From Roseinatronobacter alkalisoli (GTDB lineage: Bacteria > Pseudomonadota > Alphaproteobacteria > Rhodobacterales > Rhodobacteraceae): a stretch of DNA of 64,000 nt. The notes under the pieces were generated by a model, which was not told where the DNA came from, did no database searches, and worked only from the letters and a program-made list of their open reading frames with translations. Shown here in pieces: positions 27,515 to 53,207 of the stretch. Location: the NCBI RefSeq assembly GCF_028745735.1, contig NZ_JAQZSM010000018.1, positions 1-64,000 on the forward strand, read 5' to 3'. Numbering within the stretch: the stretch's first letter is position 1; each line of letters opens with the position of its first letter. The translations under genes and the position numbers were made by a program.

Positions 27515-27565
27515 CGTCGCACAACAAAGCGGCGAAGCGCGAATGTCATTCCAGCGATGCATACA

Positions 27566-29152: not shown

Positions 29153-29319
29153 GTATCTCTCCAGCAAGGAAGCGCACCCACCCGAAAAGGCGGGCACGCC
29201 AGAGCGCGTTATTCGCATTCACACGCCGCACTCTGACTTGTTGATTTCGCATGTCCGGAAGGCAGAAAACCGGTTTTTACTTTGTCCGCAACATGCGCTA
29301 GTTCACCGACAGTCGCCGG

Positions 29320-30330: not shown

Positions 30331-30351
30331 GTGATCCTCCTTTTCACGGTG

Positions 30352-35442: not shown

Positions 35443-35451
35443 TCCGGGCCA

Positions 35452-35931
35452 ATGCAACTCAGACGTGATCTGATTGTGGGGGCAGCCATAACTGCCCTCG
35501 CTATCGCCATGATTATAGCAACGCAGGGTTTCCCGCGTATCCGGGCCATGCCCTACGGTCCTGATCTTTTTCCGCGCATCATTGCCGGGGGACTCATCCT
35601 TTCGGCCATCGGAATCGTGATCGAAGGGTTGCGCAGCTTGCGTGCCGGGGCGGCTGAAGCAGGTGCGCCGCCTGCCCCGCGCGTCACTTTGGGGGCCTTT
35701 GCCTTTGTCGCTGTGGCCGCATTGGTTGCAGGTTTCGCGCTGTTGCTGCCGCTGCTGGGCTTTCATCTTGCTGCGGCATTGGTGCTGCTCTGTGCGGTTC
35801 CCATCTTCGGCGGCAGTCTGCTTCTGGCGGTTTTCATGGCGGCAGTGGTGCCCTTCGCGCTGCATTACGTGTTTTATTCGCTGATGCGTGTGGTTCTGCC
35901 CTGGGGCGTACTTACGCCATATGCCTGGTGA
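35452..35931 (+). CDS. tctB: TTT transporter small membrane subunit
   Basis: The protein has 159 residues with four hydrophobic segments. It begins RRDLIVGAAITALAIAMIIAT with MPYGPDLFPRIIAGGLIL, the TctB pattern. It lies 9 bases after tctC and 6 bases before tctA. Confidence 0.9.
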   Translation: MQLRRDLIVGAAITALAIAMIIATQGFPRIRAMPYGPDLFPRIIAGGLILSAIGIVIEGLRSLRAGAAEAGAPPAPRVTLGAFAFVAVAALVAGFALLLPLLGFHLAAALVLLCAVPIFGGSLLLAVFMAAVVPFALHYVFYSLMRVVLPWGVLTPYAW

Positions 35932-35937
35932 TCGCTG

Positions 35938-37440: not shown

Positions 37441-37453
37441 AACGGACAAATAG

Positions 37454-38230
37454 ATGAACAGACGAAATACTCTCAGGACGCGACTGGAGACAGGCGAGAC
37501 TGTCGCCGCTGCCTGGCTTGACCTTGGATCGGCAGAGGTTGCTGAAGTCCTGGTGCATACTGGCTGGGATGTGGTGGTTGTGGATTGCGAGCATGGCCCC
37601 ACGGCGGTGGAACAGGCCATTCCCCTTATCCGCGCAATCGAAGCCGCTGGTGGTGTGGCCGTGCTTCGGGTGCCCGACGGGTCTGACACTGTTCTGAAGC
37701 GCGTGCTTGATAAGGGCGTGCATTCGCTGATGGTGCCCATGGTTCAGACCGCAGAGGTCGCGCGCGCCGTCGCCGAAAGTTGCTTGTATCCGCCGCGCGG
37801 CAGGCGCGGCTACGCTGCGCCGATCCTGCGGGCTTCGGGTTATGGGGCGATTCCCGATTACGCCCGCGAAAGGGCGCATGACGAGTTGCTGCTCATGGTT
37901 CAGATCGAGCATGTTGACGCGATAGAGGCCATCCCCGAGATTGCCGCGATTGAAGGGGTCAGCATGATCTTTATCGGGCCGAATGACCTTGCGGCATCAA
38001 TGGGGCATCTGGAAAACATGGCACATCCAGAGGTGCGCGCCGCTATTGCACGGGCAGAAGACCTTGCGCGTGCAGCTGGGCTTATGCTCGGTACGGTGCT
38101 TTGGGCCGATCACGATTATCGCTCGCTGCGCGCGGCGGGGTATACCTTCATTGCAGGGGCCTGCGACGTGGCGCTTCTGGCCAGGGCGGCGCGTGAGGCA
38201 CGCAACGCCGCCCACGAGATGCTGGCGTAA
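37454..38230 (+). CDS. HpcH/HpaI-family (class II pyruvate-type) aldolase
   Basis: The enzyme has 258 residues. DCEHGP at 44-49, the substrate Arg at 72, and metal ligands Glu152 (QIEH) and Asp178 (PNDLAASMG) match 2-keto-3-deoxy sugar acid and 4-hydroxy-2-oxoheptanedioate aldolases. The reaction is retro-aldol cleavage to pyruvate (or oxaloacetate) and an aldehyde. Combined with the kinase and dehydrogenase next to it, the substrate is probably a keto-deoxy sugar acid, possibly phosphorylated. Confidence 0.88.
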   Translation: MNRRNTLRTRLETGETVAAAWLDLGSAEVAEVLVHTGWDVVVVDCEHGPTAVEQAIPLIRAIEAAGGVAVLRVPDGSDTVLKRVLDKGVHSLMVPMVQTAEVARAVAESCLYPPRGRRGYAAPILRASGYGAIPDYARERAHDELLLMVQIEHVDAIEAIPEIAAIEGVSMIFIGPNDLAASMGHLENMAHPEVRAAIARAEDLARAAGLMLGTVLWADHDYRSLRAAGYTFIAGACDVALLARAAREARNAAHEMLA

Positions 38231-38234
38231 GCGC

Positions 38235-39089
38235 ATGACGGCGCATCGCCTGCACATCCTCTGCGCTGGCCTGGTGGCGCTGGATATGGAATTTTCCGTG
38301 CCAGCATTTCCTGTGATGGGGTTGAAACACAAGGCAAGCGCCACGCGGTTTCTGGGGGGCGGAGGAGCACTGCTTGCAGCAACGGCAGTGCAGATTCTGG
38401 GCGGTCGCGCCAGTTTGCGGGGGGCCATGGGCGATGATGCTCTTGCCAATCTGTTGGCCGAGCGCATTCGCGACAGCGGTATCCCTCTGGATGGTCTTCA
38501 CCGCATTGCCGGTGAAGTGACCCCGCATTCAGCGGTGTTGATCCAACCCGATGGTGAACGCACGATCATCAATTTCAGGCAGGACTCACTTTGTGATAAC
38601 CTGCCATTGCCTGACTTGAACTTCCCCTATGACGCAGCGCTTTGCGATACGCGGTTTGCCAAGCTGTCAACGCCGGTTCTGGCTGCGGCACGGGCAGCGG
38701 GCAAACCTGCTGTGCTGGATGCCGAAGCCCCCGTCAGAAACATCGGATCAGGCTTGCAGGAAGCAACGCATATCGCCTTCTCGATGCAAGGACTGGAAGA
38801 TTTTGCCGGTGCAAGCGATGCACGCACCTTGCGCGAGGTGGCGCGCAGTTTGCAAAGATGGGTCTGTGTCACGCGCGGCCCCGATCCTGTGCTTTGCGAT
38901 GATGGCGCAGAAGGTTATTCCGTTGCCGTGCCGCATGCGCGTGCGGTCAACACCAATGGCGCAGGGGATTTCTGGCATGCAGCGTTCACGCTTGCGCTGG
39001 CTGGCGGGAAAACTGAACGCGCTGCGGTTACCGCCGCGAACTGCGCTGCCGCGCGGCATGTGGCCGCCTTGCCGCCCGCATTTCCATGA
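38235..39089 (+). CDS. PfkB-family sugar kinase, YihV (sulfofructose kinase)-like
   Basis: The protein has 284 residues. The ATP-site/catalytic motif NTNGAGDFWHAAF has Asp245 as base, and GGGALLAATAVQILGG forms the N-terminal sugar-binding motif. The middle DGERTIINF and DTRF...VLDAEAP...HIAFS follow the layout of E. coli YihV as I remember it. This suggests but does not prove a sulfo- or deoxy-ketose substrate. The start at 38235 gives a normal PfkB length and lies four bases after the aldolase stop. Confidence 0.82.
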   Translation: MTAHRLHILCAGLVALDMEFSVPAFPVMGLKHKASATRFLGGGGALLAATAVQILGGRASLRGAMGDDALANLLAERIRDSGIPLDGLHRIAGEVTPHSAVLIQPDGERTIINFRQDSLCDNLPLPDLNFPYDAALCDTRFAKLSTPVLAAARAAGKPAVLDAEAPVRNIGSGLQEATHIAFSMQGLEDFAGASDARTLREVARSLQRWVCVTRGPDPVLCDDGAEGYSVAVPHARAVNTNGAGDFWHAAFTLALAGGKTERAAVTAANCAAARHVAALPPAFP

Positions 39090-39116
39090 AAACATCAAGA
39101 CACAGAAAGCTGATCC

Positions 39117-40118
39117 ATGACCGGAACCTTGAAAATTGCCATCGCGGGTGCTGGTGCGATCAGTGCCTTTCACCTTGCGGGCTGGCGGGCGCAGAACGAT
39201 ATTTCGCTTGTCGGGATCTGCGACCCTGATCTGGCAAGAGCACAGGCGCGTGCAACCGAATACGGCATTCCGATGGTGTTTCAGGATATGGCCGACATGC
39301 TGGATAAGACGAAGCCGGATGCCGTGGATATCATCACCCCGGTTGGCACGCATTCCGATCTGGTGCGACAGGCGGCGGCGCGCGGTGTGCATGTAAAGTG
39401 CCAGAAACCCATGACCCCAACCGTGGCCGAAGCAGAGCGTCTGATTGCCGATCTGGGGGAGAGTGTGCGCTTCATGGTGCATGAGAATTACCGCTTCCGC
39501 CCCCATTATGCCGAAATCGCGCATCGTGTGCAGGCAGGCGAGATTGGCCAGTTGCGTCATGCCCGACTGACGGTGCGGGCCTCCGCGCTGAATGCCTATC
39601 CGGGTCAGGTGCCCTTTTTGCTGAACCGCCAGCCCTATCTGGCGCAGTTTCCAAGGTTGCTGGTCTTTGAAGTTCTGATTCACCATCTCGACGCACTTCG
39701 TGCAATTCTGGGAGAGATGACAGTGATGGCTGTGCATCTGGATCGGCTGAATCCTGATTTGCAGGGCGAGGATGTGGCGCTGATCACGTTGCGGGCACAT
39801 TCGGGGGCGCTGGTTCAGATTGATGCTAATATTTCGGCACTGGGATACCCCGATTTGCCGACTGACCGTCTGGAACTGGTGGGCACGCAGGATACGCTGG
39901 TCTATGACCGGGACCGTATCGCACTGCTTTCGCAGCCCGAAAACTTGTCGTTGCATGATCTGAGCGCCAATTATCAGGCCTGCTTCACCGGCGCGATCTG
40001 CGAGTTTGTCGAGGGGCTGCGCCACGCCAGACCCTTTGCAACGGACCGGCTCGACAATCTCAAGACGCTGCGGCTGATGGAATCAATCTATCATATGGCG
40101 GGCGTCTCCGTTGGCTAA
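39117..40118 (+). CDS. Gfo/Idh/MocA-family oxidoreductase
   Basis: The protein has 333 residues. The N-terminal Rossmann motif is IAGAGAISAFHLAGW (8-22), then the EKP-like motif appears as KCQKPM (around 96) and the C-terminal beta-sheet domain follows with VHENYRFRPHY. These enzymes oxidise sugars, inositols or sugar acids with NAD(P). It is the last gene of the TTT operon. Confidence 0.87.
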   Translation: MTGTLKIAIAGAGAISAFHLAGWRAQNDISLVGICDPDLARAQARATEYGIPMVFQDMADMLDKTKPDAVDIITPVGTHSDLVRQAAARGVHVKCQKPMTPTVAEAERLIADLGESVRFMVHENYRFRPHYAEIAHRVQAGEIGQLRHARLTVRASALNAYPGQVPFLLNRQPYLAQFPRLLVFEVLIHHLDALRAILGEMTVMAVHLDRLNPDLQGEDVALITLRAHSGALVQIDANISALGYPDLPTDRLELVGTQDTLVYDRDRIALLSQPENLSLHDLSANYQACFTGAICEFVEGLRHARPFATDRLDNLKTLRLMESIYHMAGVSVG

Positions 40119-40237: not shown

Positions 40238-41413
40238 CTACGCCTGAAAATCCTGCATGCCAAGTTCGTCCAGAATCTCTGCGGAATGCTCGCCCAGCTT
40301 CGGGGGGGGCGCGTCATGCCCCGGCCCGTCATGTGCAAATTCGAATCCGGCATTCAGGATTGTTGCAACCGGCACATGCGGGTTGGGGGTCGGCACATCG
40401 ATCATCAGATTTCGGAGCTTCAGCTGATCCAATTCCAATGCATCCGACACCTTTCTTACAGCACCTGCGGGCACCCCTGCCCTGGACAGCAACTCTTCGC
40501 ATTCCGTGGCGCTGAACTTCGCGAATGCCGCCGTCAATTCGGTCTGCAATGCAGCGTCATTCACAATGCGCGTATCGGAATCCCTGAAGCGGGGGTCACT
40601 GATCAGATGTGGAAGTTCAAGCACATGACACAGCCGCTCAAACTGGTTTTGCTGAACCGCGCCAATGGTGATCTGTCGGTCCCGGGTTGGGAATGTATCG
40701 GCCGTTGGCGCAAGCGAAAAGCCCCGGTTGCCGGTCCGCACAGGTTCCGTGCCGGAAATCAGCAAAGGATAGATAACCGACGCCATCATGACCAACGAGG
40801 CGTCAAGCATCGCGACATCAACATACTGTCCCTGTTTCGCAGGGTCGCGCTCGCGTTGCAGCAATGCAGACTGAACTGCAAACGCCGTCATCAACGCGCT
40901 ATAGGTGTCGACGACAGGAAAACCTATACGCATTGGCGGCGCCTCATGTTCCCCTGACAGGGTCATAAGTCCTGAAACACTCTGAATAATCTGGTCAATA
41001 GCGGGATGATCGCGCATTGGCCCCTTCTGACCGTAACCGGAAACAGAACAATAGATCAGCGAGGGATTTTCAGCCATGACACGTTCATGTCCCAGCCCAA
41101 GGCGATCAATCACACCCGGACGAAAATTCTCGATCATGACGTCGCTTGTTGCGATCAGCCGTCTTGCAGCTTCCTGTCCGAAGTCTGCTTTCAGGTCCAG
41201 AACCAGTGATTTCTTGCCTGCATTCACACCAATGAAAGCTTCTGCCATACCGCGCAATTCCTGCCTTTGGGTATAATTGCGCAGAACATCCCCTTTGGGT
41301 GGTTCAACCTTGATGACTTCGGCACCCATCAAGCGCAGGAAATGGGTCGCAAGCGGCCCCGCAATCACATGCGAAAAATCTGCAATTCGCATACCGGCAA
41401 GTGGCTGCCCCAT
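40238..41413 (-). CDS. Class III (CaiB/BaiF) CoA-transferase family protein
   Basis: The protein has 391 residues. The start LAGMRIADFSHVIAGPLATHFLRLMGAEVIKVE and the NAGKKSLVLDL segment are typical; the catalytic Asp169 in FPVVDTYSALMTA is present at the canonical position. It moves CoA between carboxylic acids, or may racemise an acyl-CoA. It is divergent from the rest of the cluster but its promoter carries the same palindrome, so it is likely part of the same regulon. GGAGGGA precedes its ATG. Confidence 0.9.
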   Translation of the reverse strand: MGQPLAGMRIADFSHVIAGPLATHFLRLMGAEVIKVEPPKGDVLRNYTQRQELRGMAEAFIGVNAGKKSLVLDLKADFGQEAARRLIATSDVMIENFRPGVIDRLGLGHERVMAENPSLIYCSVSGYGQKGPMRDHPAIDQIIQSVSGLMTLSGEHEAPPMRIGFPVVDTYSALMTAFAVQSALLQRERDPAKQGQYVDVAMLDASLVMMASVIYPLLISGTEPVRTGNRGFSLAPTADTFPTRDRQITIGAVQQNQFERLCHVLELPHLISDPRFRDSDTRIVNDAALQTELTAAFAKFSATECEELLSRAGVPAGAVRKVSDALELDQLKLRNLMIDVPTPNPHVPVATILNAGFEFAHDGPGHDAPPPKLGEHSAEILDELGMQDFQA

Positions 41414-41488: not shown

Positions 41489-42043
41489 CTACTTCTCTTG
41501 CGGGTCTTTCAAGGCCGGTGACAGGGTGTCCCGGTGTTTTGAGCGCATTGCAAGATGATCATGCAGGGTGTTCAACAACTGAAACAGCATCGCAGACTCC
41601 GCTGTGCTGAACGGGCCGAGCATGGCGTTGTGCTGTGCCTCCATCCGCTGCATCAGCTGGTCGTGCCATTCAATACCTGATGGCGTCAGCGACAACGCAT
41701 TATAGCGTCGGTCACTTCGGACCTTACGACGCTGGACCAGACCACGCTTCTCCAGGTTCTTGATAAGGCTTGTTACAGCGGACTTTTTAAGAACAATATG
41801 CTGCGCCAGTTCATTCTGAGAGATGCCCTGATTTTCGCGGATCAGGCTAAGCGTCGCGATCTCGCCATGCTCGGTATGCATATCGCCGAAATGCTCGACA
41901 TTTTCCGCGCGGATGAACGCTCGGATCGTCTGGGACAGAAACGGTAAATTCGCACGCAAATGGCCCAGATTGATCGACTCAACGCAGGACGGGACGGCGC
42001 CTTCATGTTCGGTCATATGTCTCACTCTCAAATTTTCATCCAA
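41489..42043 (-). CDS. MarR-family transcriptional regulator
   Basis: The protein has 184 residues. The winged helix ISQNELAQHIVLKKSAVTSLIKNLEKRGLVQRRKVRSDRRYNALSLTPSG at about 74-123 is classic MarR. An alternative start at 42016 (after GAGAGTGAG) would drop nine residues. It is located between the palindromes at 41432-41450 and 42107-42123, so it is the prime candidate to bind them. MarR proteins bind palindromes and release on an aromatic or acyl-CoA ligand. Confidence 0.88.
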   Translation of the reverse strand: MDENLRVRHMTEHEGAVPSCVESINLGHLRANLPFLSQTIRAFIRAENVEHFGDMHTEHGEIATLSLIRENQGISQNELAQHIVLKKSAVTSLIKNLEKRGLVQRRKVRSDRRYNALSLTPSGIEWHDQLMQRMEAQHNAMLGPFSTAESAMLFQLLNTLHDHLAMRSKHRDTLSPALKDPQEK

Positions 42044-42086: not shown

Positions 42087-42123
42087 TTGACACATGCATC
42101 ATAAAAAGTTCAAGTTATGAACT
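42087..42123 (+). promoter_or_regulatory. Promoter region with MarR-regulon palindrome, site 2
   Basis: A TTGACA box at 42087-42092 is followed by the perfect inverted repeat AGTTCA-AGTTA-TGAACT at 42107-42123, which covers the expected -10 region. It is 20 bases upstream of the GTG of the next gene and about 64-90 bases upstream of the divergent marR-type gene, so it may control both. Confidence 0.75.
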
Positions 42124-42143: not shown

Positions 42144-43247
42144 GTGACTTCGCAAACTGCGGCCAACAGACTTGAAAACGCATTTGCCTTGCGCAGCACG
42201 GAACTGCCGACCGATATGATCGGCATTTTCGGCGAAGGGTTTCCCGAAGCGTTGCTGCGTGCGGCTGGGGCGCGGCTAACCTGTCTGCATGTTGCGCCCA
42301 TCGATGACGACAGCAATGCCGGACAAGCTGTATCCGATTGTATAGAACCCTTTGTCGATCACGCGGTTCAATGCTTCCTGCACCGTTTCGCAATGGACAG
42401 CTTCAGGAACTTGCAAGCGATCATCTTTTGCCGCGATGACACGGCGGCCCTTGTGGCCTATCAGTATGCATCGGAATTGCGGCGGTTGGGATTGGCGCCT
42501 GCGACACCGCAGTTGATTTTGTGGAATCTGGTCCACGCACCCCACGCGCATGATTTCAACATGCTGCAAATGAAGAAACTGTGGCAATACCTGGACCTCG
42601 CGCCGCCGGTCGATAGCGCTTTGGCCGCGACCCTGACAGATGAACGCGCCCGCGCAAATGCGCTTGCTGAACTGTCGGATGGCACTGGGCGTATCCCTGC
42701 AAGCACCGCGATCAAATGGCGCATCGCAGGTCGCAATATGGACGGGAGAGAGCACGCGCAACTTATAAGCGCGGCACTTGCAACCGCCCCGCGCCCGGTC
42801 GGGCAAAGCCTGCGCCTTGGTTTGATCGGCGCGCCCATCACAGCGGTCGACCTGTACCAGACCATAGAGCAGCATGGGCATATCGTATGTGACCTGCAGC
42901 CCATCGCAGCTGCCTGGCCTGTGCCCCTACCCGAAATTCCTGGCATTGCCGCGTTTTTGCAGGCGGCAGCATCCGATCCGGCTTGTGCAAGAATCGTTCC
43001 GCCTGACCGCCACACAGAAATGCTGCTGCGCCGATTGACTGCGGCAAATTGTGACGCCGTGATCTGCCAGCTTCAGCCGCATGATGATGTGTTCGGATGG
43101 GATGTACCGCAGATTTCGGATTACCTTCACGCAAATGAAACCCCTTTCATTAACCTTGGCTTCATTGACCCTGCCCCTGACGACACTGAATTGACCAGAA
43201 TAGGCGCGCTGTTGGCGCATGAATTACGGCAACGGGGGCTGACATGA
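42144..43247 (+). CDS. 2-hydroxyacyl-CoA dehydratase (HgdC/HgdB)-family protein, subunit 1
   Basis: The protein has 367 residues. The layout (GEGFPEALLRAAGA near 30, an IIFCRDD strand near 93-99, ILWNLVHAPHAHDFNMLQMKKLWQYL, and NETPFINLGF near the C-terminus) fits the HgdB/BcrC fold of 2-hydroxyacyl-CoA dehydratases and benzoyl-CoA reductases. Those hold a [4Fe-4S] cluster with three Cys; here only Cys77 (and perhaps Cys308) lie near expected positions. GTG at 42144 is chosen because AAGGAG is seven bases upstream and the earlier ATG lies inside the palindrome. It overlaps the next gene by four bases. Confidence 0.7.
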   Translation: MTSQTAANRLENAFALRSTELPTDMIGIFGEGFPEALLRAAGARLTCLHVAPIDDDSNAGQAVSDCIEPFVDHAVQCFLHRFAMDSFRNLQAIIFCRDDTAALVAYQYASELRRLGLAPATPQLILWNLVHAPHAHDFNMLQMKKLWQYLDLAPPVDSALAATLTDERARANALAELSDGTGRIPASTAIKWRIAGRNMDGREHAQLISAALATAPRPVGQSLRLGLIGAPITAVDLYQTIEQHGHIVCDLQPIAAAWPVPLPEIPGIAAFLQAAASDPACARIVPPDRHTEMLLRRLTAANCDAVICQLQPHDDVFGWDVPQISDYLHANETPFINLGFIDPAPDDTELTRIGALLAHELRQRGLT

Positions 43248-44500
43248 CCCATACGTCATTGAAGACAACGAAAATCGCCATGACCTATCAGCGCGACTGG
43301 GTCCGGCAGCTGCGCGAGGACATCACGGGCGGCCAGAAATTCGCATTCGTGAACGCTGACACGCCGCATGAACTGTTTCATGCGATGGGTATGCCCATCG
43401 TAACAAACCAATGGTGGTCCGCGGTCATTGCGGCCAAGCAACTGTCGGAGCACTATCTGGATCGCGCTACGGAAATGGGGTTTCACGCCCATCTTCCGCG
43501 CTATTCAAGCCTGCCCTTGATTGCAGAACTGGATGGTGACCCTGCGCGCCAACCCTGGGGGGGATTGCCGAATCCCTCAATTCTGTGCGCGCGGCAAAGC
43601 TCGGATGAGCATCAGAAAGTGTTTTCACTTTGGTCCAGGGCGACTGGGGCACCTTTGCATCTTTTCAGCGCGCCGGGCGTTCCGAACCCTGAACCACGTT
43701 GGTGGGAAATCGCACGCGACGATTGGGAACAGCTTTATCATCCGGACCGGCTTGACCTGATGGTTGCGGAAATGAAAACGCTGATCACAACGCTGGAACA
43801 CATGACCGGCAAGAATTTTGATCTGGACCAGTTCAGCCAGTATATGCACGCGATCAACCGGCAGGAAGCGATCTTCGAAGAAATAGATCAGATGATCGCC
43901 CAAGCGCCCCAGGCGCCATTGCGCATTTCCGAACAAATTCCAAATGTCATGGTTCCACAATGGCACCGTGGTTCCGGCTGGGCGCTGGAACATGCGGCGT
44001 CGTTCCGTGACGAAGTGGCTGCGCGAATTGCCGAAGGTCAATCCGTCTGTGAAAAGGAACGTATCCGCATGATGTGGATCGGCGCGGGGCTTTGGTTTGA
44101 CACCGATTTCTATACTGCATTCGAGGAAAGCCACGGCGCTGTTTTTGTGTGGTCCATGTATCTGCCATTCGCGGCGGATGGCTACATCCGGACTATCGGT
44201 GATGACCCGTTGCGCGCGCTGGCGGCACGCATATCATTAATGAATGAACAACTGCACCAGCCGCCCTGGGTGAACGAGTGGCTGGTCGAACAGGCACAAC
44301 GCTACCGGATTGATTGCGCGCTGATGCTGGTGCCACGCCATGACCGTTTTTCCAGTTACGGTTCGCATTTTGCGCGCCGCGCGTTGGAGGCGGCAGGTAT
44401 TAAAGTGATCGAGATCTGGTCCGATATGGTGGATCGCCGCGATTGGAATCGCGCAGAAATGCAAGCCCTGGTGGCAGCGGAACTGGACAGAATAAGTTGA
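43244..44500 (+). CDS. 2-hydroxyacyl-CoA dehydratase (HgdB)-family protein, subunit 2, lacking cluster cysteines
   Basis: The protein has 418 residues. HELFHAMGMPIVTNQWWSAVIAAKQ near 43-66 and GYIRTIGDDPLRALAARI in the C-terminal half match the HgdB/BcrB family. The three usual ligand positions read LPRY (near 84-87), SSDE (119-122) and RHDR (365-368) rather than C-S-Y, C-D and C-x-P, so the standard [4Fe-4S] cluster probably cannot form. Remaining Cys are 115, 269 and 358. It likely pairs with the protein encoded just upstream. No HgdC-type activator ATPase gene is present. The reaction is unknown. Confidence 0.7.
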   Translation: MTHTSLKTTKIAMTYQRDWVRQLREDITGGQKFAFVNADTPHELFHAMGMPIVTNQWWSAVIAAKQLSEHYLDRATEMGFHAHLPRYSSLPLIAELDGDPARQPWGGLPNPSILCARQSSDEHQKVFSLWSRATGAPLHLFSAPGVPNPEPRWWEIARDDWEQLYHPDRLDLMVAEMKTLITTLEHMTGKNFDLDQFSQYMHAINRQEAIFEEIDQMIAQAPQAPLRISEQIPNVMVPQWHRGSGWALEHAASFRDEVAARIAEGQSVCEKERIRMMWIGAGLWFDTDFYTAFEESHGAVFVWSMYLPFAADGYIRTIGDDPLRALAARISLMNEQLHQPPWVNEWLVEQAQRYRIDCALMLVPRHDRFSSYGSHFARRALEAAGIKVIEIWSDMVDRRDWNRAEMQALVAAELDRIS

Positions 44501-44529
44501 ATTTTAAATCAATAGTTCATATGATGAAC
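44497..44529 (+). promoter_or_regulatory. Promoter with MarR-regulon palindrome, site 3
   Basis: TTGAAT at 44497-44502, a 17-base spacer and TATGAT at 44520-44525 form a good sigma-70 promoter. The -10 box is inside GTTCAT-ATG-ATGAAC (44515-44529), which is the same GTTCA-N5-TGAAC palindrome as sites 1 and 2. Binding there would block polymerase. The start of the next gene is 26 bases downstream. Confidence 0.8.
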
Positions 44530-44555
44530 CATTGATTGTGCGGATTGGGGGAATC

Positions 44556-45734
44556 ATGCGCGCGTTGGAAGGTGTAAAGATAGCCGATTTCAGCTGGGTT
44601 GGTGCCGGACCGCGGGCAACCAAGGATCTGGCCGATAACGGTGCGCTGGTCATCAAGATCGAATCCGCGCGCAGGCTGGATCTGGGGCGCCGCTCGCCAC
44701 CATTTGCCGACAGCCCAAAAGATTACGACGGTTCCGCATTTTTTGCGCAATCCAACACATCCAAGAAAAGCGTCACCTTGAACCTGTCGGACCCGCGCGG
44801 CGTGGACTTGGCACGGCAACTTGTTGGCTGGGCTGATGTTGTTGTCGAAAACTTTGGCCCCAACTACATGGAGCGTATCGGGCTGGGATTTGAAACCTTG
44901 CGCAAGATCAAGCCGGATATCATTCTGGCCAGTGTTTCGGTTGCTGGACGCACCGGCCCAATGGCCGGGTTTCGCGGATATGGCAATTCCGCCGCCGCCC
45001 ATTCCGGACATGCGGCACTGTCAGGATGGCCCGATCGCCCCCCACATATGCCGCCGCTTGCCTATGGCGATGTCGTCGCACCAATGTTTGCGACTGTGGC
45101 AGTTTTGGCAGCACTTGAATACCGTAGCCGCACAGGGCGCGGGCAGCATCTGGATATTTCGCAGATTGAACCGATGGTTCATGTCATTGCCGACCTGTTC
45201 GCCGATCCTGATGCGGGGAAATCCGGAAACGCAGATCCGGTCATGGCACCGCATGGTGTCTATCGTTGCAAGGGGGACAAATGGATTGCCATCGCCGCCG
45301 AAACGAATGCGCAATGGCGCAGTATATGCACTGTGCTGGGGCTGACACCGGATACTTGTTTTGAAACTGCGAAGGGGCGCATCAGGCATCTGCAACAGCT
45401 GGACCAGCAAGTTGCGCAGGCTATTGCGGCAAGGAGTCGTGATGACCTGATCATCGAACTGTCGCAGGCTGACGTGCCAGTAGCCGCAGTTCAGAACGGG
45501 CGCGACGTGTTTGAGGATCCCGAATTACGTGCAGCCGGTCATGTTGTGCCAGTCCAGCATCCGGTTCTGGGCACCAGCATGATGCCAACACCACCAATGA
45601 TCTTTTCGCAAACCCCTTCCGCAGTCAGTGCCGCGCCCTGTCTGGGTGCCCATAATGACGAAGTGCTTTCTGGCATTCTGGGCCTGTCCGCTGAACGTCT
45701 GGAAGAATTGAAAACCTTGGGGGTCGTCGCATGA
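44556..45734 (+). CDS. Class III (CaiB/BaiF) CoA-transferase family protein
   Basis: The protein has 392 residues. LEGVKIADFSWVGAGPRATKDLADNGALVIKIE opens the fold, and the catalytic Asp172 in AYGDVVAPMF is present. It could form an acyl-CoA from an imported carboxylate. ATG at 44556 has GGGGGA four bases upstream; a longer frame begins in the promoter. Its stop overlaps the next start (ATGA), suggesting stoichiometric production with the protein at 45731-46828. Confidence 0.88.
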   Translation: MRALEGVKIADFSWVGAGPRATKDLADNGALVIKIESARRLDLGRRSPPFADSPKDYDGSAFFAQSNTSKKSVTLNLSDPRGVDLARQLVGWADVVVENFGPNYMERIGLGFETLRKIKPDIILASVSVAGRTGPMAGFRGYGNSAAAHSGHAALSGWPDRPPHMPPLAYGDVVAPMFATVAVLAALEYRSRTGRGQHLDISQIEPMVHVIADLFADPDAGKSGNADPVMAPHGVYRCKGDKWIAIAAETNAQWRSICTVLGLTPDTCFETAKGRIRHLQQLDQQVAQAIAARSRDDLIIELSQADVPVAAVQNGRDVFEDPELRAAGHVVPVQHPVLGTSMMPTPPMIFSQTPSAVSAAPCLGAHNDEVLSGILGLSAERLEELKTLGVVA

Positions 45735-46828
45735 GCCAACTGCAGGGCATCCGCGTTCTCGAACTTTCAGATGGTCTGGTCGATCTGGGCGGCCGGATGC
45801 TGGCCGAACTGGGCGCAACTGTCATCAGCCTGTCACGCAGCGCACCGCAGACTGACGCGCGGGAACTTGCATGGGGGCACGGCAAGCATCGATTTACCTG
45901 GCCAGAGGATATTTCGGCATTGTCGCGCATTCTGGAAGAAGCGGATCTTCTGCTTGAAGATCGCCGACGTGGGCCGATTATTCCTGATGCCATGCTGACA
46001 GGTCTTGACCAGCTGATCCATGTGGTTGCGCGCCCCTACAGCGCCGCCGGTCCCCGCAGTGGTCACGTTGCGACGGATCTGACGCTGATGGCGCAAAGCG
46101 GGTTGATGCATATAACTGGCGATCCTGACCGCCCCCCGCTGCGTTTTCCAGGTGAACAGGCATATGCGCTGACCGGCATTCAAGTGGCGACGGCCGGCTT
46201 GATGGCGCTTCATGCGCGCCGCCGGACGGGGTGCGGGCAATGTGTCGAAGTCTCGGCTCTGCAAGCAACGACATTGGCAAATTACCGCGAAGCCATCATG
46301 TATGAGTGGACCGGACGCATAGGCAACCGCACCGGCAACCGGCTGGTGCGCGGAAAATCGGGGGTACGACAAGTCTGGCCCTGCGCAGACGGTCATGTGA
46401 CGTGGTCCATGATCGACAATCCGAACATGATGCGTGCCGTGATAAATGTTCTGGAACAGCATGATGCGGCAGGTGAACTTGCTGAAGTTGATTGGGGGGC
46501 CATCCTTGTCGCAGACATGCCGCAGGATGTGATTGGCCGCTGGGAAGCCATTCTGGAAGCCTTCTTCGCGCACCACACCAAAGGTCAGCTTGGGCAATGG
46601 TCGCTTGAACTTGGGTGGGGGCTTTCGGTCATTCATGATCTGGATGAAGTGCGCGACAGCGCCCATTTACGTGAACGCGGCCTGTTTGTGCCCATCCGTT
46701 CGGGTGATGATGAGATCCCGCTTCCGGGACCATTGTTTCACCATGGCGCCGGTCACGATGTTCCCGTTCGAACGCTGATGCCAAAGCAGGCGCTGGACGA
46801 TTTCCGCGGCTGGGAGACATACGCATGA
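45731..46828 (+). CDS. CaiB/BaiF-family protein without the catalytic Asp
   Basis: The protein has 365 residues. LQGIRVLELSDGLVDLGGRMLAELGATVISL and GIQVATAGLMALHARRRTGCGQCVEVSAL align with the CoA-transferase III fold, but at the catalytic position the sequence reads AYALTG (144-149), so no Asp is present. The GPYL-like GAP of the N-terminus is also replaced by GLVDLGG. It is likely a structural or allosteric partner of one of the neighbouring active subunits rather than an enzyme by itself. Confidence 0.8.
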   Translation: MSQLQGIRVLELSDGLVDLGGRMLAELGATVISLSRSAPQTDARELAWGHGKHRFTWPEDISALSRILEEADLLLEDRRRGPIIPDAMLTGLDQLIHVVARPYSAAGPRSGHVATDLTLMAQSGLMHITGDPDRPPLRFPGEQAYALTGIQVATAGLMALHARRRTGCGQCVEVSALQATTLANYREAIMYEWTGRIGNRTGNRLVRGKSGVRQVWPCADGHVTWSMIDNPNMMRAVINVLEQHDAAGELAEVDWGAILVADMPQDVIGRWEAILEAFFAHHTKGQLGQWSLELGWGLSVIHDLDEVRDSAHLRERGLFVPIRSGDDEIPLPGPLFHHGAGHDVPVRTLMPKQALDDFRGWETYA

Positions 46829-48009
46829 CAGCGCTTCAAGGCATGAAGGTGCTTGATTTTTCGCGTTTGCTGCCGGGGCCATATTGCACATGGCTGCTTG
46901 CCGATATGGGTGCCGATGTCATTCGTATTGAAAACCCGCGGGAACTGAAAAAGCAGGCAAAGGTTTTCGGCTGGGACCGCCTGACCCCAACCGGGCGCGC
47001 GGAATTGCGGCAGAATGACATCCTGTCGCGCAACAAGAAGTCGCTGAAACTTGATATTGGCAATCCCGATGCACTGGCGCTGATCAAGCGTCTGGTGCTG
47101 GGCGCAGATATCATGGTTGAAGATTATCGCCCCGGCGTTCTGGCCAGCCTGGGACTGGATTACCAAACACTTCAGAAAATCAACCCGCGCCTTATCTATT
47201 GCAGCCTGACCTTGTGCGGACATACCGGGCCTTACCGCGATAAACCCGGGCACGACCCGGTTGCCCTTGCTATTTCAGGGGCACTGTCACGCATTGGCGA
47301 GAACGCGGACACACCTTCCTTCGCGGGGGTTCCGGTTGCAGATATCGTGACTGGCACGCATGCTGCCTTCGGCATTCTGGCTGCTGCAATTGCCCGTCAG
47401 CGTGACGGCAAAGGCCAGCATGTCGACATCGCGATGAGTGATTGTGCAATGTCGCTTCTGGTAAATGTGCTGTCGCGCCACCCGGACCCGTCCACCATTC
47501 CACCGCGTGGGGCGCGGCGTGCCGACATGGGGTTATGGCGAACAAAAGACAACAAATTCATCGTCACAACTGACATGGAGCCACGCTATTGGCACCGGTT
47601 TTGCGAAGCTGTGGGAAAGCCTGAATTCACAGAGCTTCAGCATGATGTTCAGTCATGGCCCCGTATTCGGACAGAACTGCAAATCATATTTTCAGAACGC
47701 ACGCGGGACGAATGGCTTGACCTGCTGACCGCCGCGCAAACCCAGTTCTGCGCCGTTCATGACGTGGCAGAGGCGCTGACGGATGAACACAATCTCGCGC
47801 GGGGGATGGTCGTCCCGGTACAATCCGATACCGGGCGCGACCTTCAGCAGATCGGTTCACCCGTCAAGCTTACAAGAACCCCTGCACGGGTCCGCAATCT
47901 GGCGCCAGTTCCGGGGCAGGACAGGGATGAAATCCTGTTTGCAGCCGGTTTGGGTGCAAAAGACATAAAGGCTTTGGCCGCAGCCGGAGCTTTTGGAGAA
48001 GACTTATAA
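46825..48009 (+). CDS. Class III (CaiB/BaiF) CoA-transferase / acyl-CoA racemase-like protein
   Basis: The protein has 394 residues. MKVLDFSRLLPGPYCTWLLADMGADVIRIE is a textbook start, and Asp173 in VADIVTG is the catalytic residue. GHDPVALAISGALSRIG resembles alpha-methylacyl-CoA racemases, which belong to the same fold, so transferase and racemase are both possible. The gene overlaps the preceding one by four bases and ends 26 bases before the TRAP binding-protein gene. Confidence 0.88.
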   Translation: MTALQGMKVLDFSRLLPGPYCTWLLADMGADVIRIENPRELKKQAKVFGWDRLTPTGRAELRQNDILSRNKKSLKLDIGNPDALALIKRLVLGADIMVEDYRPGVLASLGLDYQTLQKINPRLIYCSLTLCGHTGPYRDKPGHDPVALAISGALSRIGENADTPSFAGVPVADIVTGTHAAFGILAAAIARQRDGKGQHVDIAMSDCAMSLLVNVLSRHPDPSTIPPRGARRADMGLWRTKDNKFIVTTDMEPRYWHRFCEAVGKPEFTELQHDVQSWPRIRTELQIIFSERTRDEWLDLLTAAQTQFCAVHDVAEALTDEHNLARGMVVPVQSDTGRDLQQIGSPVKLTRTPARVRNLAPVPGQDRDEILFAAGLGAKDIKALAAAGAFGEDL

Positions 48010-48035: not shown

Positions 48036-49043
48036 ATGGCTTACTTCACGAAGACTGCGCTAACCACTGGCATAATCACCGTTCTGGGGCTGGGTATGGC
48101 CACAGCTCAGGAATTCCGGCTGACTTATGCATCGCCATATGGGCCCACTCATCCATATGGCGAAGCGGATCAGGCGTGGATTGACAGAATTCACGAACAG
48201 ACCGAGGGGCGCGTGGAAATCACGCCTTTCTGGGGCCGCTCATTGATCACAAGCCGCGAAGGCGTTGACGAACTTGCCGCAGGTGTCGCCGATATTGCGT
48301 ATATAGCGCCCATTTACGCAAGTTCCGGGTATGAACTGTCGCGCCTTACACCATCCTTTTTCTATGGGTATGAGGATGCTCTTGAAGTTCTGGATGTGTA
48401 TCTGGAACTGTGGAACGAATTCCCCCAGTTCGAGCAGGAACTGGACGGCGTAAAAGTCCTTGGGTTCAACGTGGGCACCCCCATGCACCTGATGCTGCGC
48501 GACCGCCCGTTTGAACAGGTCAGCGATTTGCAGGGGCTGCGCATCCGTTCGGCGGTTGACTATATCAGCGCATTGGCCGGTTTCGGGGCCGAAGGCGTTA
48601 CCATGCCGATGACAGACACATATCCCGCACTGGAACGCGGTGTCGTGGATGGTGTGATCGCACCCTATGAGGCGCTGCGATCCCTGAGTTTCGCCGAAGT
48701 CATCAATTACTATTCAGAACTGCCCCACAGCCGCGGCGCCTACCCGTCCCGGGCCATGAATGGTGGCGTCTGGGCCCGCCTTCCTGCTGACATTCAACAG
48801 GTATTCGAGGATAACATCCTCTGGCTTACCACGATGACATATGAACTGGCCGAAGGGTCCGAAGATGCGGGGCGCGCATATGGCGAAGAAATGGGCGTCA
48901 CATTCAACACCGTAGATGAAAGCGTCATCATCGAATATTCGGCGGCCTTTGCGCAGCCTGCACGGGAAACTGCAGAACGCCTTGATGCCGCGGGAATGCC
49001 CGGAACCGAAATCCTGAACCGCGTTCGCGCGGGTCGCGACTGA
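48036..49043 (+). CDS. dctP: TRAP transporter DctP-type solute-binding protein
   Basis: This 335-residue periplasmic protein has a signal peptide of about 24 residues ending ATA. LQGLRIRSAVDYISALAGFGAEGVTMPMTDTYPALERGVVDGVI contains the conserved Arg and the family pattern. GGGAGGA precedes the ATG. Location in the CoA-transferase cluster suggests that it binds the carboxylate that is later activated to a CoA thioester. Confidence 0.9.
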   Translation: MAYFTKTALTTGIITVLGLGMATAQEFRLTYASPYGPTHPYGEADQAWIDRIHEQTEGRVEITPFWGRSLITSREGVDELAAGVADIAYIAPIYASSGYELSRLTPSFFYGYEDALEVLDVYLELWNEFPQFEQELDGVKVLGFNVGTPMHLMLRDRPFEQVSDLQGLRIRSAVDYISALAGFGAEGVTMPMTDTYPALERGVVDGVIAPYEALRSLSFAEVINYYSELPHSRGAYPSRAMNGGVWARLPADIQQVFEDNILWLTTMTYELAEGSEDAGRAYGEEMGVTFNTVDESVIIEYSAAFAQPARETAERLDAAGMPGTEILNRVRAGRD

Positions 49044-49054
49044 CGCAGCAATCA

Positions 49055-49095
49055 GAAAGTGACGGGGCCGCCACAGCCTCGTCACTTTCCGTTTT
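49055..49095 (+). terminator. Strong hairpin between dctP and dctQ
   Basis: GAAAGTGACG (49055-49064) pairs perfectly with CGTCACTTTC (49080-49089) over ten bases, followed by CGTTTTC. It is likely a partial terminator or stabiliser giving more binding protein than permease. The same arrangement occurs at 23919-23952. Confidence 0.65.
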
Positions 49096-49120
49096 CAAAA
49101 ATTAGCCAAGGTATGGATGC

Positions 49121-49642
49121 ATGCGTTACGGTCAGCGCCTTCTGGAACTGTTTAGCCGGGTGTCGGGATTGATTGCGGTCAGTGGCATTCTCGCCCTGAT
49201 GGCGTTGACTGTCGTCACAGTTGCCTTCCGCGCGGTGGGCATAGCCTTTCCAGGGACATACGCGATTGCGGAATTGTTGCTTATTCCCGCCATCAGCTTC
49301 GCACTGGTCTATGCAACCATGCAAAACGAGCATACGGGCGTCACCCTGTTCGTGGACGGACTGCATCACAGGCGGTTCCGGCTGACCCTTAAGGGCATCA
49401 TGCTGGCCTTGGGGTCGCTGTTCTGGATGGCAGTTGCGCTGGCAACAATACGCGAAGCGATAAGGCGGGCTGCGCAAGGCGAAATGTCCCCGATCATCAA
49501 TATTCCTGTCGCGCCCTTCCGGTGGATGATGGCAATCGCCATGATCCTGATCTGCGTGACGCTACTGTTCAAAGTGCTGCAATTGTTTCTTGGCCAGGAC
49601 GATAGCATCAACACCCCCGAAAAACTGGAAAACAAACTATGA
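49121..49642 (+). CDS. dctQ: TRAP transporter small permease (DctQ)
   Basis: The protein has 173 residues and four hydrophobic segments, with YAIAELLLIPAISFALVYATMQNEHTGVTLFVDGL typical of DctQ. Its stop overlaps the dctM start by four bases. Confidence 0.88.
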   Translation: MRYGQRLLELFSRVSGLIAVSGILALMALTVVTVAFRAVGIAFPGTYAIAELLLIPAISFALVYATMQNEHTGVTLFVDGLHHRRFRLTLKGIMLALGSLFWMAVALATIREAIRRAAQGEMSPIINIPVAPFRWMMAIAMILICVTLLFKVLQLFLGQDDSINTPEKLENKL

Positions 49643-50934
49643 GCACGGTCGCTATCGGTTTTGTCGGGCTTGCAATCGTCTTTGCGTTTATCGCGGCGGG
49701 AATGCCCATCGGGTTTGCGATGGGGCTGGTGGGTTTTGTCGGGTTCGCAGCCATTATCAGCTTCGATGCTGCAGTAGTGCGCATCGGGGTCACGACCTAT
49801 GGCATTGTTACGAACCACGCTATCGGAACCATTCCGCTGTTTCTGTTCATGGCGCACCTCATGTTTGCATCCGGCATCGGGCGCGACATCTACGACTTTG
49901 CCGCGAAATGGATCGGACGCAGACGCGGCGGGCTTGCCATGGCGACGATCGGGGCATCAGCGGGGTTTGCTTCGGTCAGCGCATCCAGTCTGGCGACGAC
50001 AGCAACGATGGGGCTGGTCGCGATGCCTGAAATGCGCAAGCATAAATACGACCTGTCGCTGGCGTCCGGCAGTGTCGTCGCAGGCGGCACCATTGGCGCG
50101 CTGATACCACCTTCCGGAATGTTCATCATCTATGGAATCCTTACCGAAACATCGATCGGCGCAATGTTTGCTGCGGGGATCATTCCGGGTATTATGCTGG
50201 CACTTTTTTATATTGTCACGATAGCCATCATCTGCCGGATCAACCCTGATGCGGGACCGCGCGGCCCGAAATACACATTCCGCGAAAAACTCGCCAGTTT
50301 CAAAACCACTGGCGAAGTGATCTTGTTGTTCAGTCTGGTCATGGGGGGCATCATCTTTGGTTGGTTCACCCCGACCGAGGCAGGCGCAATCGGGGCATTC
50401 GGCGCGATTGTAATAACCGCCGCACGGCGTCGCCTGACCTGGGTCACGGCACGCACAGCAATATATGCTACGGTCAAGACAACGGGGATGATCTTCGGCA
50501 TCCTGTTCGGCGCGTTGGTGTTCAACAGCTTTGTAACCGTCACACGGATACCGCTTCACATTGTTGATTTTGTCAGCAACAGCGGCTTTGCGCCAATGAC
50601 CATCTTACTGATGATTCTGGCCGTTTATCTTGTCCTCGGGATGGTGCTGGATGCGTCGGCGATGATGACCCTGACAGTGCCTTTGTTCTTTCCCCTTGTT
50701 ACCGGTCTGGGGTTTGATGCGATATTGTTTGGTGTTCTGGTTGTGCGGATGACAGAAATTGCCCTTATCACCCCACCCGTGGGCATGAATGTATATATCC
50801 TGTCAGGCGTTGCACGCGATGTGCCGCTGAACAAAATATTCAAGGGCGCATTTCCCTTCGTCGGTGCAGATATATTGCATGTCGCGCTATTGCTCGCGTT
50901 TCCGATACTGGTGCTTTGGCTGCCAAGTCTGTAG
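49639..50934 (+). CDS. dctM: TRAP transporter large permease (DctM)
   Basis: This 431-residue protein of about 12 membrane segments has SAGFASVSASSLATTATMGLVAMPEM and GSVVAGGTIGALIPPSGMFIIYGILTETSIGAMFAAGIIPGI, along with WFTPTEAGAIGA. All are classic DctM. It completes the DctPQM importer of the MarR-regulated cluster. Confidence 0.93.
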   Translation: MSTVAIGFVGLAIVFAFIAAGMPIGFAMGLVGFVGFAAIISFDAAVVRIGVTTYGIVTNHAIGTIPLFLFMAHLMFASGIGRDIYDFAAKWIGRRRGGLAMATIGASAGFASVSASSLATTATMGLVAMPEMRKHKYDLSLASGSVVAGGTIGALIPPSGMFIIYGILTETSIGAMFAAGIIPGIMLALFYIVTIAIICRINPDAGPRGPKYTFREKLASFKTTGEVILLFSLVMGGIIFGWFTPTEAGAIGAFGAIVITAARRRLTWVTARTAIYATVKTTGMIFGILFGALVFNSFVTVTRIPLHIVDFVSNSGFAPMTILLMILAVYLVLGMVLDASAMMTLTVPLFFPLVTGLGFDAILFGVLVVRMTEIALITPPVGMNVYILSGVARDVPLNKIFKGAFPFVGADILHVALLLAFPILVLWLPSL

Positions 50935-51104: not shown

Positions 51105-53207
51105 ATGTCTGTCAGTAGACGTGGCTGGTTAAAAGGCGCTTCAGCCTTGCTTGTAACACCGATATTCGGATGCCGGGATACCACACACATGACAAGGATG
51201 CTTTGGCGCCAATGGCAATCGGATTGGCGCTGGATGGAAGAAATTGCGCAAAGGCGAGGTTGGCAGGTGACGCCGCTCTCAATCGCGCCGCCTGCCTCTG
51301 AAACTGCTGTCCAGGCACTGGAAAGCCTCCACGGGATGAGGGTGCCGCCGCAGCTTCGCGAATTGCTGACGCGCTATTCCGCGCATGTCGCGTTCGGCTG
51401 GTATATTCCGTCACATCTGCGTCCGATGCACCACCAGAACCTTCCAACGATGAGCGCGAACCGGTTTGCGATATGGGACATCGACCACATCGCCGACCAC
51501 GCGATTCCGAACTTTCTGGGCTTGAAGAGGCATTTGGCCGATATGGATCTCTCTGAAGCTCCGAATAGTCCTGAAATGTGGGAACATCAGTTTCCTGTCT
51601 ACAATCTGGTCAATGGTGACATTATCACCATCGACATGTCAGCGCCCGATGAACCGCATCCGGTGCGCTATTTCAGCCACGAACTGGAGATGCTGCACGG
51701 TCTTACGCTCGCACCGGATTTCATCTCCTTCGTAACCGAGATGTCGAAGCTTGGCTTCGCCGGAACGGAATGGGCATCGTGGATGCCGTTCGGCACGTTT
51801 GACGAGGCGCGGAACGCATACACGCTGAAGGCGGACAGTCCAGGTGGCAAGGCCTGGCTGGATTGGTTGGCAAAGGACCTCACTGAACCCGAAGCCGATG
51901 TGCCGCCGCAATCGATTTTAGAGGAAACACCAGCTGAACGCGCCTTGCTTACCGGCGCGCGCGCCAACGACATGGAAGCCGTCAAACTGGCGCTCAAGGC
52001 CGGGGCGAGGCCGGATGTCGTGCCAGACGGCAACTGGCTCTCGGACAACTTTGCCTGGGATCAGGAATTTTCGACCGCTCTCAGCTATGCCGTGCGCGCC
52101 AACAACCTGCCGCTTGCGCAGGGACTGCTCGACGCCGGTGCAACCGTGAATACGCGCCGCCTGCCGATGGCAGACGCGGTACAGGCAAGCACGCTCGACA
52201 CCATACAATGGCTGATCGGCCTGGGTGCGCGCGTTAACGGCTGGAAGGATGACCGCCATTGGCCAATTCACCTGCTAATCACGCAACGCAGCAAGCTGAC
52301 GGCACCAACAAGAAGCGAACTGGAAGCGCGCCTTCGCAAGGACAACGAGGTCTGGTCCCAGGCAGACGACGCCACTGACCATCGGCGGGTGCTGCGTGAC
52401 ATACAGGAAAAGCGCCTTCGCGATCAACTCGCCGCTTGGATAGACCGGCCCACCTATCTCGCCATGCTTGATGCGTTGTTGAAAGCCGGCGCGGAACCCG
52501 ACGCGCGCTGGGACAACGACACCACCGCACTGATGTGGGCGGAGGCGGATGATAGCGAGTTACTGTTGCGCGCGGGCGCCGATGTCGAGGCACGGGATTT
52601 CTCAGGCAGCAGCGCCCTGCATATGGCCAGACGACCGGATAAAATTCGTGTGCTCGTGGCCCATGGCGCCGATGTAAACGCCCTGGAGACGCCGCCACCG
52701 GGCTACGAAAACGAATGGGCGTCGACTCCGCTTCAATCCGCACTGCTCCTTTCAAGGCTCGATGGTCTTGAGCGCGCCCGGACTCTTCTGGACCTGAAGG
52801 CGGACCCACGCAAACGGGATGCTCAAGGCCGCAGTACCCTATGCTACTGCACAACAGTAGAGAGCTTCGAGCTCATCACCGCCCACGGCCTCGACCCGCT
52901 GGAGCGCCTTCCCGATGGCGGCACCCTGCTGCATAACCTGTACAGGGCGACCAGTCTCCGTACCTCCTGGCCTGACGAAGTTGCATTCCTCGATTTCCTG
53001 CTTGGTCTGGGTCTGCCGATCAACGCAGAGGATGACGCCGGACAAACAATGCTCCATGTCGCTGCAGAACGGACTCAGACGGTCGAGGATATTGCCCTGC
53101 TTCTGGATCGCGGCGCAGATAAGTCGGTTCGCGATCGTCGCGGGCGGCACCCCGTTGATCTTGTACCGGGATCACTTCAGGAGATCCGTAACCTTCTCGC
53201 ACCGTGA
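51105..53207 (+). CDS. SMI1/KNR4 (SUKH)-like domain and ankyrin-repeat protein with Tat/lipobox N-terminus
   Basis: The protein has 700 residues. It begins SRRGWLKGASALLVTPIFGC: a twin-arginine pair at 5-6, a hydrophobic stretch and a lipobox-like Cys23, so it may be an exported lipoprotein. Residues about 60-250 look like a SMI1/KNR4 domain (VPPQLRELLTRYSAHVAFGWYIP, then VYNLVNGDIITIDM and LTLAPDFISFVTEM). From about 275 to the end there are degenerate ankyrin repeats, for example AVKLALKAGARPD, LLLRAGADVEARDFSGSSALHMA and LLLDRGADKSVRDRRGRHPVDL. It is a monocistronic gene with no toxin gene nearby. Function unknown. Confidence 0.75.
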   Translation: MSVSRRGWLKGASALLVTPIFGCRDTTHMTRMLWRQWQSDWRWMEEIAQRRGWQVTPLSIAPPASETAVQALESLHGMRVPPQLRELLTRYSAHVAFGWYIPSHLRPMHHQNLPTMSANRFAIWDIDHIADHAIPNFLGLKRHLADMDLSEAPNSPEMWEHQFPVYNLVNGDIITIDMSAPDEPHPVRYFSHELEMLHGLTLAPDFISFVTEMSKLGFAGTEWASWMPFGTFDEARNAYTLKADSPGGKAWLDWLAKDLTEPEADVPPQSILEETPAERALLTGARANDMEAVKLALKAGARPDVVPDGNWLSDNFAWDQEFSTALSYAVRANNLPLAQGLLDAGATVNTRRLPMADAVQASTLDTIQWLIGLGARVNGWKDDRHWPIHLLITQRSKLTAPTRSELEARLRKDNEVWSQADDATDHRRVLRDIQEKRLRDQLAAWIDRPTYLAMLDALLKAGAEPDARWDNDTTALMWAEADDSELLLRAGADVEARDFSGSSALHMARRPDKIRVLVAHGADVNALETPPPGYENEWASTPLQSALLLSRLDGLERARTLLDLKADPRKRDAQGRSTLCYCTTVESFELITAHGLDPLERLPDGGTLLHNLYRATSLRTSWPDEVAFLDFLLGLGLPINAEDDAGQTMLHVAAERTQTVEDIALLLDRGADKSVRDRRGRHPVDLVPGSLQEIRNLLAP

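Follow-up and report, generated by a model that had tools for sequence, protein, structure and literature searches.

A 2-hydroxyacyl-CoA dehydratase-like protein pair without cluster ligands or activator, encoded with CoA-transferases in Alphaproteobacteria: a possible non-radical acyl-CoA enzyme

Introduction

Two adjacent genes of Roseinatronobacter alkalisoli, here called P1 and P2, encode a protein pair homologous to the subunits of the benzoyl-coenzyme A (CoA) reductases and 2-hydroxyacyl-CoA dehydratases (BCR/HAD enzymes), but without the three cysteines that ligate the catalytic iron-sulfur cluster, and in a genome with no recognisable activating ATPase. Both genes are on the forward strand (P1, 42144..43247; P2, 43244..44500) of a 64,000-nucleotide stretch of contig NZ_JAQZSM010000018.1 (the whole stretch being hereafter the window), where CoA-transferase genes and a tripartite ATP-independent periplasmic (TRAP) importer accompany them. 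BCR/HAD enzymes are textbook low-potential, oxygen-sensitive radical catalysts, and the most economical reading of the sequences is that P1 and P2 would catalyse a different, possibly non-radical, acyl-CoA reaction. The initial annotation of the window had described such a pair, without cluster ligands or activator and in a CoA-transferase and TRAP context, in this one genome; we find that the description holds across a clade of P2 relatives. No characterised Cys-less family of HGD-D proteins was found in the family libraries used or in the open-access papers searched.

Results and Discussion

Homology and subunit roles

Both proteins lie above the curated cut-off of the Pfam family HGD-D (E-values of 4.1e-9 for P1 and 1.4e-43 for P2), which bears out their earlier assignment to the HgdB/BcrB type and makes them neighbouring homologous subunits. 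The two open reading frames (ORFs) were confirmed at the positions given above, with an ATGA stop/start overlap at 43244-43247; for P1, the nearest relative, L003 (Rhodobacteraceae), favours the GTG start at 42144, the ATG at 42117 being the alternative. In the NCBIfam library, the BzdO, HadB, double-cubane and BcrB models match P2 below threshold only (the double-cubane model NF040772, with a cut-off of 350, scores 28.4 bits), and no model matches P1. A profile built from 14 P2 proteins was compared with solved chains (E-values up to 0.01), and matched BzdO (2.4e-20), MbdO (1e-18), HadB (1.6e-13) and, weakly, double-cubane cluster proteins (0.0017; PDB 6eno, 7yyl), the last over about 110 residues in the middle part of P2. 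The likeness to the BCR/HAD active-site subunits BzdO, MbdO and HadB (PDB 8s02, 9g87 and 3o3m) extends over most of the P2 length, and P2 is therefore placed in the active-site (BzdO/HadB-like) subunit position, with P1 in the partner (beta, HgdB/HadC-like) position.

In genomes G679 and G1184, P1 and P2 are fused as a single ORF, which argues for a physical pair, and the two proteins would form a heterodimer. The fused ORFs (L060:8760-11159, reverse strand; L082:7117-9675, forward strand) are about 800-850 residues long, and the region of the third cluster ligand is absent from them. A second P1-like gene was observed in G142 at a contig end (L039:2-1648, reverse strand), separate from the P1-P2 pair.

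Loss of the cluster ligands

The P2 alignment comprises 43 P2-type rows, namely eight canonical rows and a P2 clade of 35 rows that includes 27 sampled genomes, one metagenome-assembled genome and six plasmids. The canonical rows were scored on the full-length alignment (four of them are trimmed in the tree alignment), and the clade separates from them in the tree with support 98/100. In BzdO, PMC11971306 gives Cys95, Cys128 and Cys380 as the three ligands of the [4Fe-4S] cluster, and names Tyr97, Tyr298 and Gln274 as hydrogen-bonding the thioester oxygen. In the P2 profile alignment, these cysteines fall on Pro85, Ser120 and Asp367 of P2, the two tyrosines on Tyr87 and Tyr306, and the glutamine on Ala281.

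All eight canonical rows have Glu56, Cys85, Cys120 and Cys367. In the P2 of the window the canonical Cys-Ser-Tyr has become Pro-Arg-Tyr (85-87), the second Cys is replaced by Ser120 and the third by Asp367, just as the initial annotation had read them, and none of the three ligands is left; the cysteines that this protein has elsewhere (115, 269 and 358) are not conserved across the clade. Over the 35 clade rows, all three ligand cysteines are present in one (L058), two in 12 and none in 22, two of these last being gapped at the third site. The 12 two-Cys rows (Sphingomonadales-type rows and G1470, the Sphingomonadales label resting, for part of them, on their place in the tree among named plasmid rows) keep the first and second ligand sites, and Cys88 and Cys122 are also present in all 13 Cys-bearing rows of the clade. 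Within the clade L058 branches first (83/78), followed by the two-Cys group and then by the Cys-free group (81/80), all with modest support. Additionally, the two-Cys genes (L059, L066-L068, L071, L073 and L095-L100) show a C-x2-C motif at 85/88, a C-x-C motif at 120/122 and extra cysteines near 94 and 354; L058 likewise has the 85/88 and 120/122 cysteines.

The remainder of the presumed active site has changed unevenly. Tyr87 and Tyr306 are each found in 35/35 clade rows (and in 7/8 and 6/8 canonical rows, respectively), and numerous aromatic and charged residues of P2 are likewise invariant. At position 56, 30 of the 35 rows have Gln, one has Glu and four have Pro or Thr; the canonical Glu56 is taken to be, with an uncertainty of one residue, the acid/base Glu65 of BzdO.

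The partner subunit was compared in 36 P1 rows and eight full-length canonical partner subunits. The earlier claim that P1 retains at most one or two cysteines fails as a count, the protein having eight in total, but stands where the beta cluster is concerned: at columns 72, 99 and 314, where the canonical partners have Cys in 8/8, the P1 of the window has Asp at all three. Cysteine occurs at these columns in none, two (L039 and L082) and none of the 36 P1 rows (with one, one and 14 rows gapped), and the complete set is kept by no P1; in an earlier alignment the middle column was set at 102, and no P1 row has Cys there. At column 232, Cys is present in 7/8 canonical partners and in five P1 rows. 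The P1 of L058 is without any canonical partner Cys, though its P2 keeps all three ligands, which suggests that the beta cluster was lost before the catalytic one. In Sphingomonadales, P1 is about 290 residues long.

Absence of the activating ATPase

The initial annotation saw no activator near the pair, and the observation extends to the genome: the activator model TIGR00241 matches nothing in the whole assembly. The assembly has a single Pfam match of BadF/BcrAD type, which was rejected as an activator, being GlcNAc-kinase-like by eye and lying beside a sugar isomerase-like gene. Among the 27 P2-clade genomes (scanned as a set of 21 and then one of six; completeness is below 90% in two of them, G142 and G159), TIGR00241 was found in G153 only, where it adjoins Cys-bearing HGD-D paralogues on a different contig from P2. 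As a control, the model is present in 7/7 genomes whose only P2-like match is Cys-bearing (G275, G1050, G152, G044, G169, G108 and G119, with three Cys confirmed in each). A search with PF06050 returned no HGD-D proteins beyond the P1 and P2 types in 26 of the 27 clade genomes.

P1 and P2 share with the BCR/HAD radical enzymes the two-subunit arrangement and the thioester-binding tyrosines; unlike those enzymes, the window type is without the three Cys ligands, has mostly lost the acid/base Glu and belongs to a clade in which 26 of 27 genomes have no activator. The same gene layout is seen in the Cys-bearing clusters of L072 (Rhodococcus) and L040 (genome G275), in which a divergent CaiB gene is likewise followed by P1-like and P2-like genes, and which we take to be clusters of the Fld/Had type, with a CoA-transferase, two dehydratase subunits and an activator. 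The activator gene that comes after the two subunits in these clusters is absent from the window clade (except for G153, where it lies beside other HGD-D genes), and, judged by its genes, the window type looks like a Fld/Had-type cluster minus the activator. A Rhizobium leguminosarum plasmid has another HGD-D locus (L070:11809-19274), where a divergent HGD-D pair, its P2-like member Cys-bearing, is accompanied by a symporter, rhodanese-like proteins and two activators; this may be a BCR/HAD system related to sulfur.

Gene neighbourhood and selective constraint

The initial annotation also counted several CoA-transferases in the cluster, and Pfam recognises four of family III in the window. The annotation proposed a check of whether such genes are conserved neighbours in other genomes, and they are: all 34 relatives have a family III CoA-transferase gene no more than 3.5 kb from P2, and in 33 of them the retrieved stretch includes a transferase whose best match is the divergent one of the window (40238..41413). 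The P1 gene either adjoins P2 or is separated from it by a transferase gene, at a distance of about 2 kb (34/34), and the large TRAP permease gene DctM lies within 8 kb in 27/34. The full window-type set, with three successive transferases (a, b and c) and the TRAP genes, recurs across many Rhodobacteraceae, in many of which a MarR match is also found near P1. Simpler gene sets occur elsewhere, that of G1184 consisting of a CoA-transferase, the fused P1-P2 and a PETase-like hydrolase. In Sphingomonadales and G520 the neighbours include a TonB receptor, a CocE/NonD or S15 hydrolase, a CapA-type protein and a PETase-like hydrolase, which suggests an ester-derived acid as the substrate.

The selective constraint on these genes was estimated from the ratio of nonsynonymous to synonymous changes (dN/dS) against L003, the values being approximate because synonymous changes are near saturation. 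The ratio is 0.054 for P2 and 0.169 for P1; the CoA-transferases a, b and c range over 0.072-0.116, and the TRAP binding protein DctP and DctM have ratios of 0.076 and 0.021, respectively.

Proposed function and alternative explanations

Because cluster ligands and activator have been lost and yet strong selection persists beside CoA-transferases, P1 and P2 probably catalyse a radical-free acyl-CoA reaction. We give an even chance to the more specific proposal that they descend from a CoA-transferase-coupled HAD-type pair in which loss of the catalytic cluster followed that of the activator and the beta cluster, and which now performs redox-neutral acyl-CoA chemistry. The ancestor would have been a 2-hydroxyacyl-CoA dehydratase or benzoyl-CoA reductase in a Fld/Had-type arrangement, and the stepwise losses, with the catalytic cluster going last, would have left an acyl-CoA enzyme devoid of iron-sulfur clusters. 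In the present-day system, the TRAP importer would take up a carboxylate, the CaiB-type transferases would convert it into its CoA ester, which P2, partnered by P1, would bind in the old pocket, Tyr87 and Tyr306 holding the thioester carbonyl. The acyl group would then undergo a redox-neutral reaction without electron input, most likely through an enol or enolate, the candidates being dehydration/hydration, isomerisation or carbon-carbon cleavage. More tentatively, the clade may be the first branch of the BCR/HAD enzymes to work without metal or radical, in which the CoA-ester site is kept, enolate replaces ketyl chemistry, and members with two or three Cys are living intermediates that followed the loss of the activator.

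Several observations weigh against the preferred proposal. The binding of a CoA ester by P1 and P2 is deduced from homology and from the neighbouring genes, and the structure predictions, each made from a two-row alignment (the window and L003), are of low confidence (mean pLDDT, the predicted local distance difference test, of 36.7 and 41.4). The old catalytic set is itself partly lost, given the change of Glu56 to Gln in 30/35 rows. Twelve of the 35 rows keep two ligand cysteines plus two further ones, which leaves room for metal binding in those members, and single canonical cysteines survive in some P1 rows (at column 99 in two rows of one alignment, at column 232 in five). The order of losses hangs on the fork with 83/78 support, and the all-Cys state on the single genome of L058.

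Among the alternatives, the one that survives best, although we regard it as unlikely, is that the pair is a pseudoenzyme, that is, a partner of the CaiB transferases with a regulatory or CoA-ester-binding role, which keeps the transferase-dehydratase contact of Fld/Had-type systems and has no reaction of its own. The constancy of the CoA-transferase as a neighbour (34/34) agrees with such a role, as do the decay of P1 (down to about 290 residues in Sphingomonadales) and the loss of the ligands and, mostly, of the acid/base Glu. Nevertheless, P2 is more tightly constrained than the three CoA-transferases of its own operon, and this constraint, together with the many aromatic and charged residues that are invariant in 35/35 rows, suggests an active pocket.

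Next in likelihood, and again improbable, is that another metal occupies the old cluster sites (mononuclear Zn or Fe, or, in Cys-bearing members, an aconitase-type hydrolytic [4Fe-4S] cluster) and promotes dehydration as a Lewis acid. The four-Cys set C85-x2-C88 and C120-x-C122 of the Sphingomonadales-type and G1470 rows could form a new metal site, and makes this explanation likelier there than in the window. For the window it is kept open by the three Asp of P1, which stand at all three beta-cluster columns; near the P2 site there are also His81, His123 and Asp367, and Asp121 (kept in 34/35 rows). Of these named P2 candidates, however, only Asp121 is kept nearly clade-wide, and the fused members do without the region of the third ligand altogether.

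That P1 and P2 still form a radical enzyme, with different residues ligating the cluster and electrons coming from an unrelated donor, seems to us very unlikely. The P2 of L058 does keep all three cysteines, and Cys115, near the second ligand site, is frequent (16 rows), but the Cys-free rows have no three conserved cysteines to offer, no P1 keeps the three beta-cluster cysteines, and 26 of 27 genomes, that of L058 included, are without the activator. Finally, we give almost no credence to the idea that an ordinary dehydratase was gained from anaerobes and that these genes are what is left of it as it decays: P1 evolves fast, and in G020 the P1 and DctP genes and one CoA-transferase gene are short or split, but both dN/dS ratios (0.054 for P2, 0.169 for P1) speak for selection, P2 is intact in many genera and the operon is conserved.

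Should the preferred interpretation of a radical-free acyl-CoA enzyme be correct, a clade that sheds its activator and clusters stepwise under strong selection would reveal what the fold is capable of without metal, and its intermediates would allow the sequence of events by which a radical enzyme is disarmed to be tested. Public records name relatives "2-hydroxyacyl-CoA dehydratase family protein", a label that our results suggest is misleading for these genomes, in which the genes mark a conserved uptake-and-activation cluster of Rhodobacteraceae and Sphingomonadales.

Distribution of the P2 clade

All P2-clade matches are from Alphaproteobacteria. In genome sets drawn at successive ranks around the window (sets that overlap), the clade was found in 13/295 genomes for the family, 7/292 for the order, 4/385 for the class and 4/398 for the phylum, and in 1/5, 6/196 and 2/150 genomes of three further orders. 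At a threshold of 1e-3, the 20 matches of the family set comprised the 13 clade members, six Cys-bearing kin and one spurious match. In this family set a weak match in G018 (L044) was dropped as a flagellar-type protein by eye, and the fifth match of the phylum set, in G1050 (L057/L081), was rejected as a clade member, being canonical: it has three Cys, adjoins two activators and groups with the canonical rows.

Phyla beyond that of the window were covered by a plasmid collection and by a pattern scan of genome contigs. The plasmid collection (72,556 records) gave ten P2 matches: three were at 20-23% identity, and the other seven, from Croceicoccus, Novosphingobium and Rhizobium, were at 43-49%. 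The tree includes six of the seven close ones, the second Croceicoccus record (H2) being left out. The contig scan with P2 gave one relative, L003, and says little on distant kin because it is based on short exact patterns.

Other genes of the operon and the window

Downstream of P2 and on the same strand are the CoA-transferases a (44532..45734; Pfam CoA_transf_3, 1.9e-99; alternative start possible at ATG 44556), b (45731..46828; 1.6e-40) and c (46825..48009; 7.7e-95), with further ATGA overlaps between a and b and between b and c. The benzylsuccinate CoA-transferase (PDB 9fn0) is the best solved match of both a (chain B, 6.5e-73) and b (chain A, 2e-15), and no benzylsuccinate-oxidation genes were noticed among the window genes scanned. 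The other three transferases of the window share an Asp, presumably the catalytic Asp of family III, that is missing from the corresponding column of CoA-transferase b. This pattern, together with a Novosphingobium gene in which a b-like half is fused ahead of an a-like half (L067:12878-14965), fits a heteromeric transferase of the benzylsuccinate type, whose hallmark we take to be two family III subunits, one of them without the catalytic Asp.

The TRAP importer noted in the initial annotation is indeed present (48036-50934), also on the forward strand. It consists of the solute-binding protein DctP (48036..49043; Pfam DctP, 3.1e-31; 18 TRAP binding proteins matched among solved structures), the small permease DctQ (49121..49642), named from its ORF, a match and its conserved operon place, without a profile, and the large permease DctM (49639..50934), named from its ORF and conserved operon place, whose counterpart in Sphingomonadales plasmids is annotated as a TRAP large permease. 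On the reverse strand, divergent from P1, lie a MarR-family regulator (41489..42043; Pfam MarR, 1.3e-13) and the fourth family III CoA-transferase (40238..41413; 4.2e-112).

In G020, P1, a CoA-transferase and DctP are short or split ORFs beside an intact P2 (L032:8321-12891), which reflects either local decay or assembly errors. The genes at 34-40 kb of the window were considered as part of the P1/P2 system and excluded, because the stretch retrieved for L003 has no listed match to the aldolase or Gfo/Idh gene; they encode (34453-40118) a TctC/TctA-type transporter (TctA by eye), an HpcH/HpaI aldolase, a PfkB kinase and a Gfo/Idh oxidoreductase, and probably form a separate sugar-acid cluster. 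Further upstream (25919-32280), two sulfatase genes adjoin those of an NMT1-like binding protein and a DctM-type permease, and directly after the TRAP genes (51105-53207) lies a gene whose 700-residue product combines ankyrin repeats with an SMI1/KNR4 (SUKH) domain.

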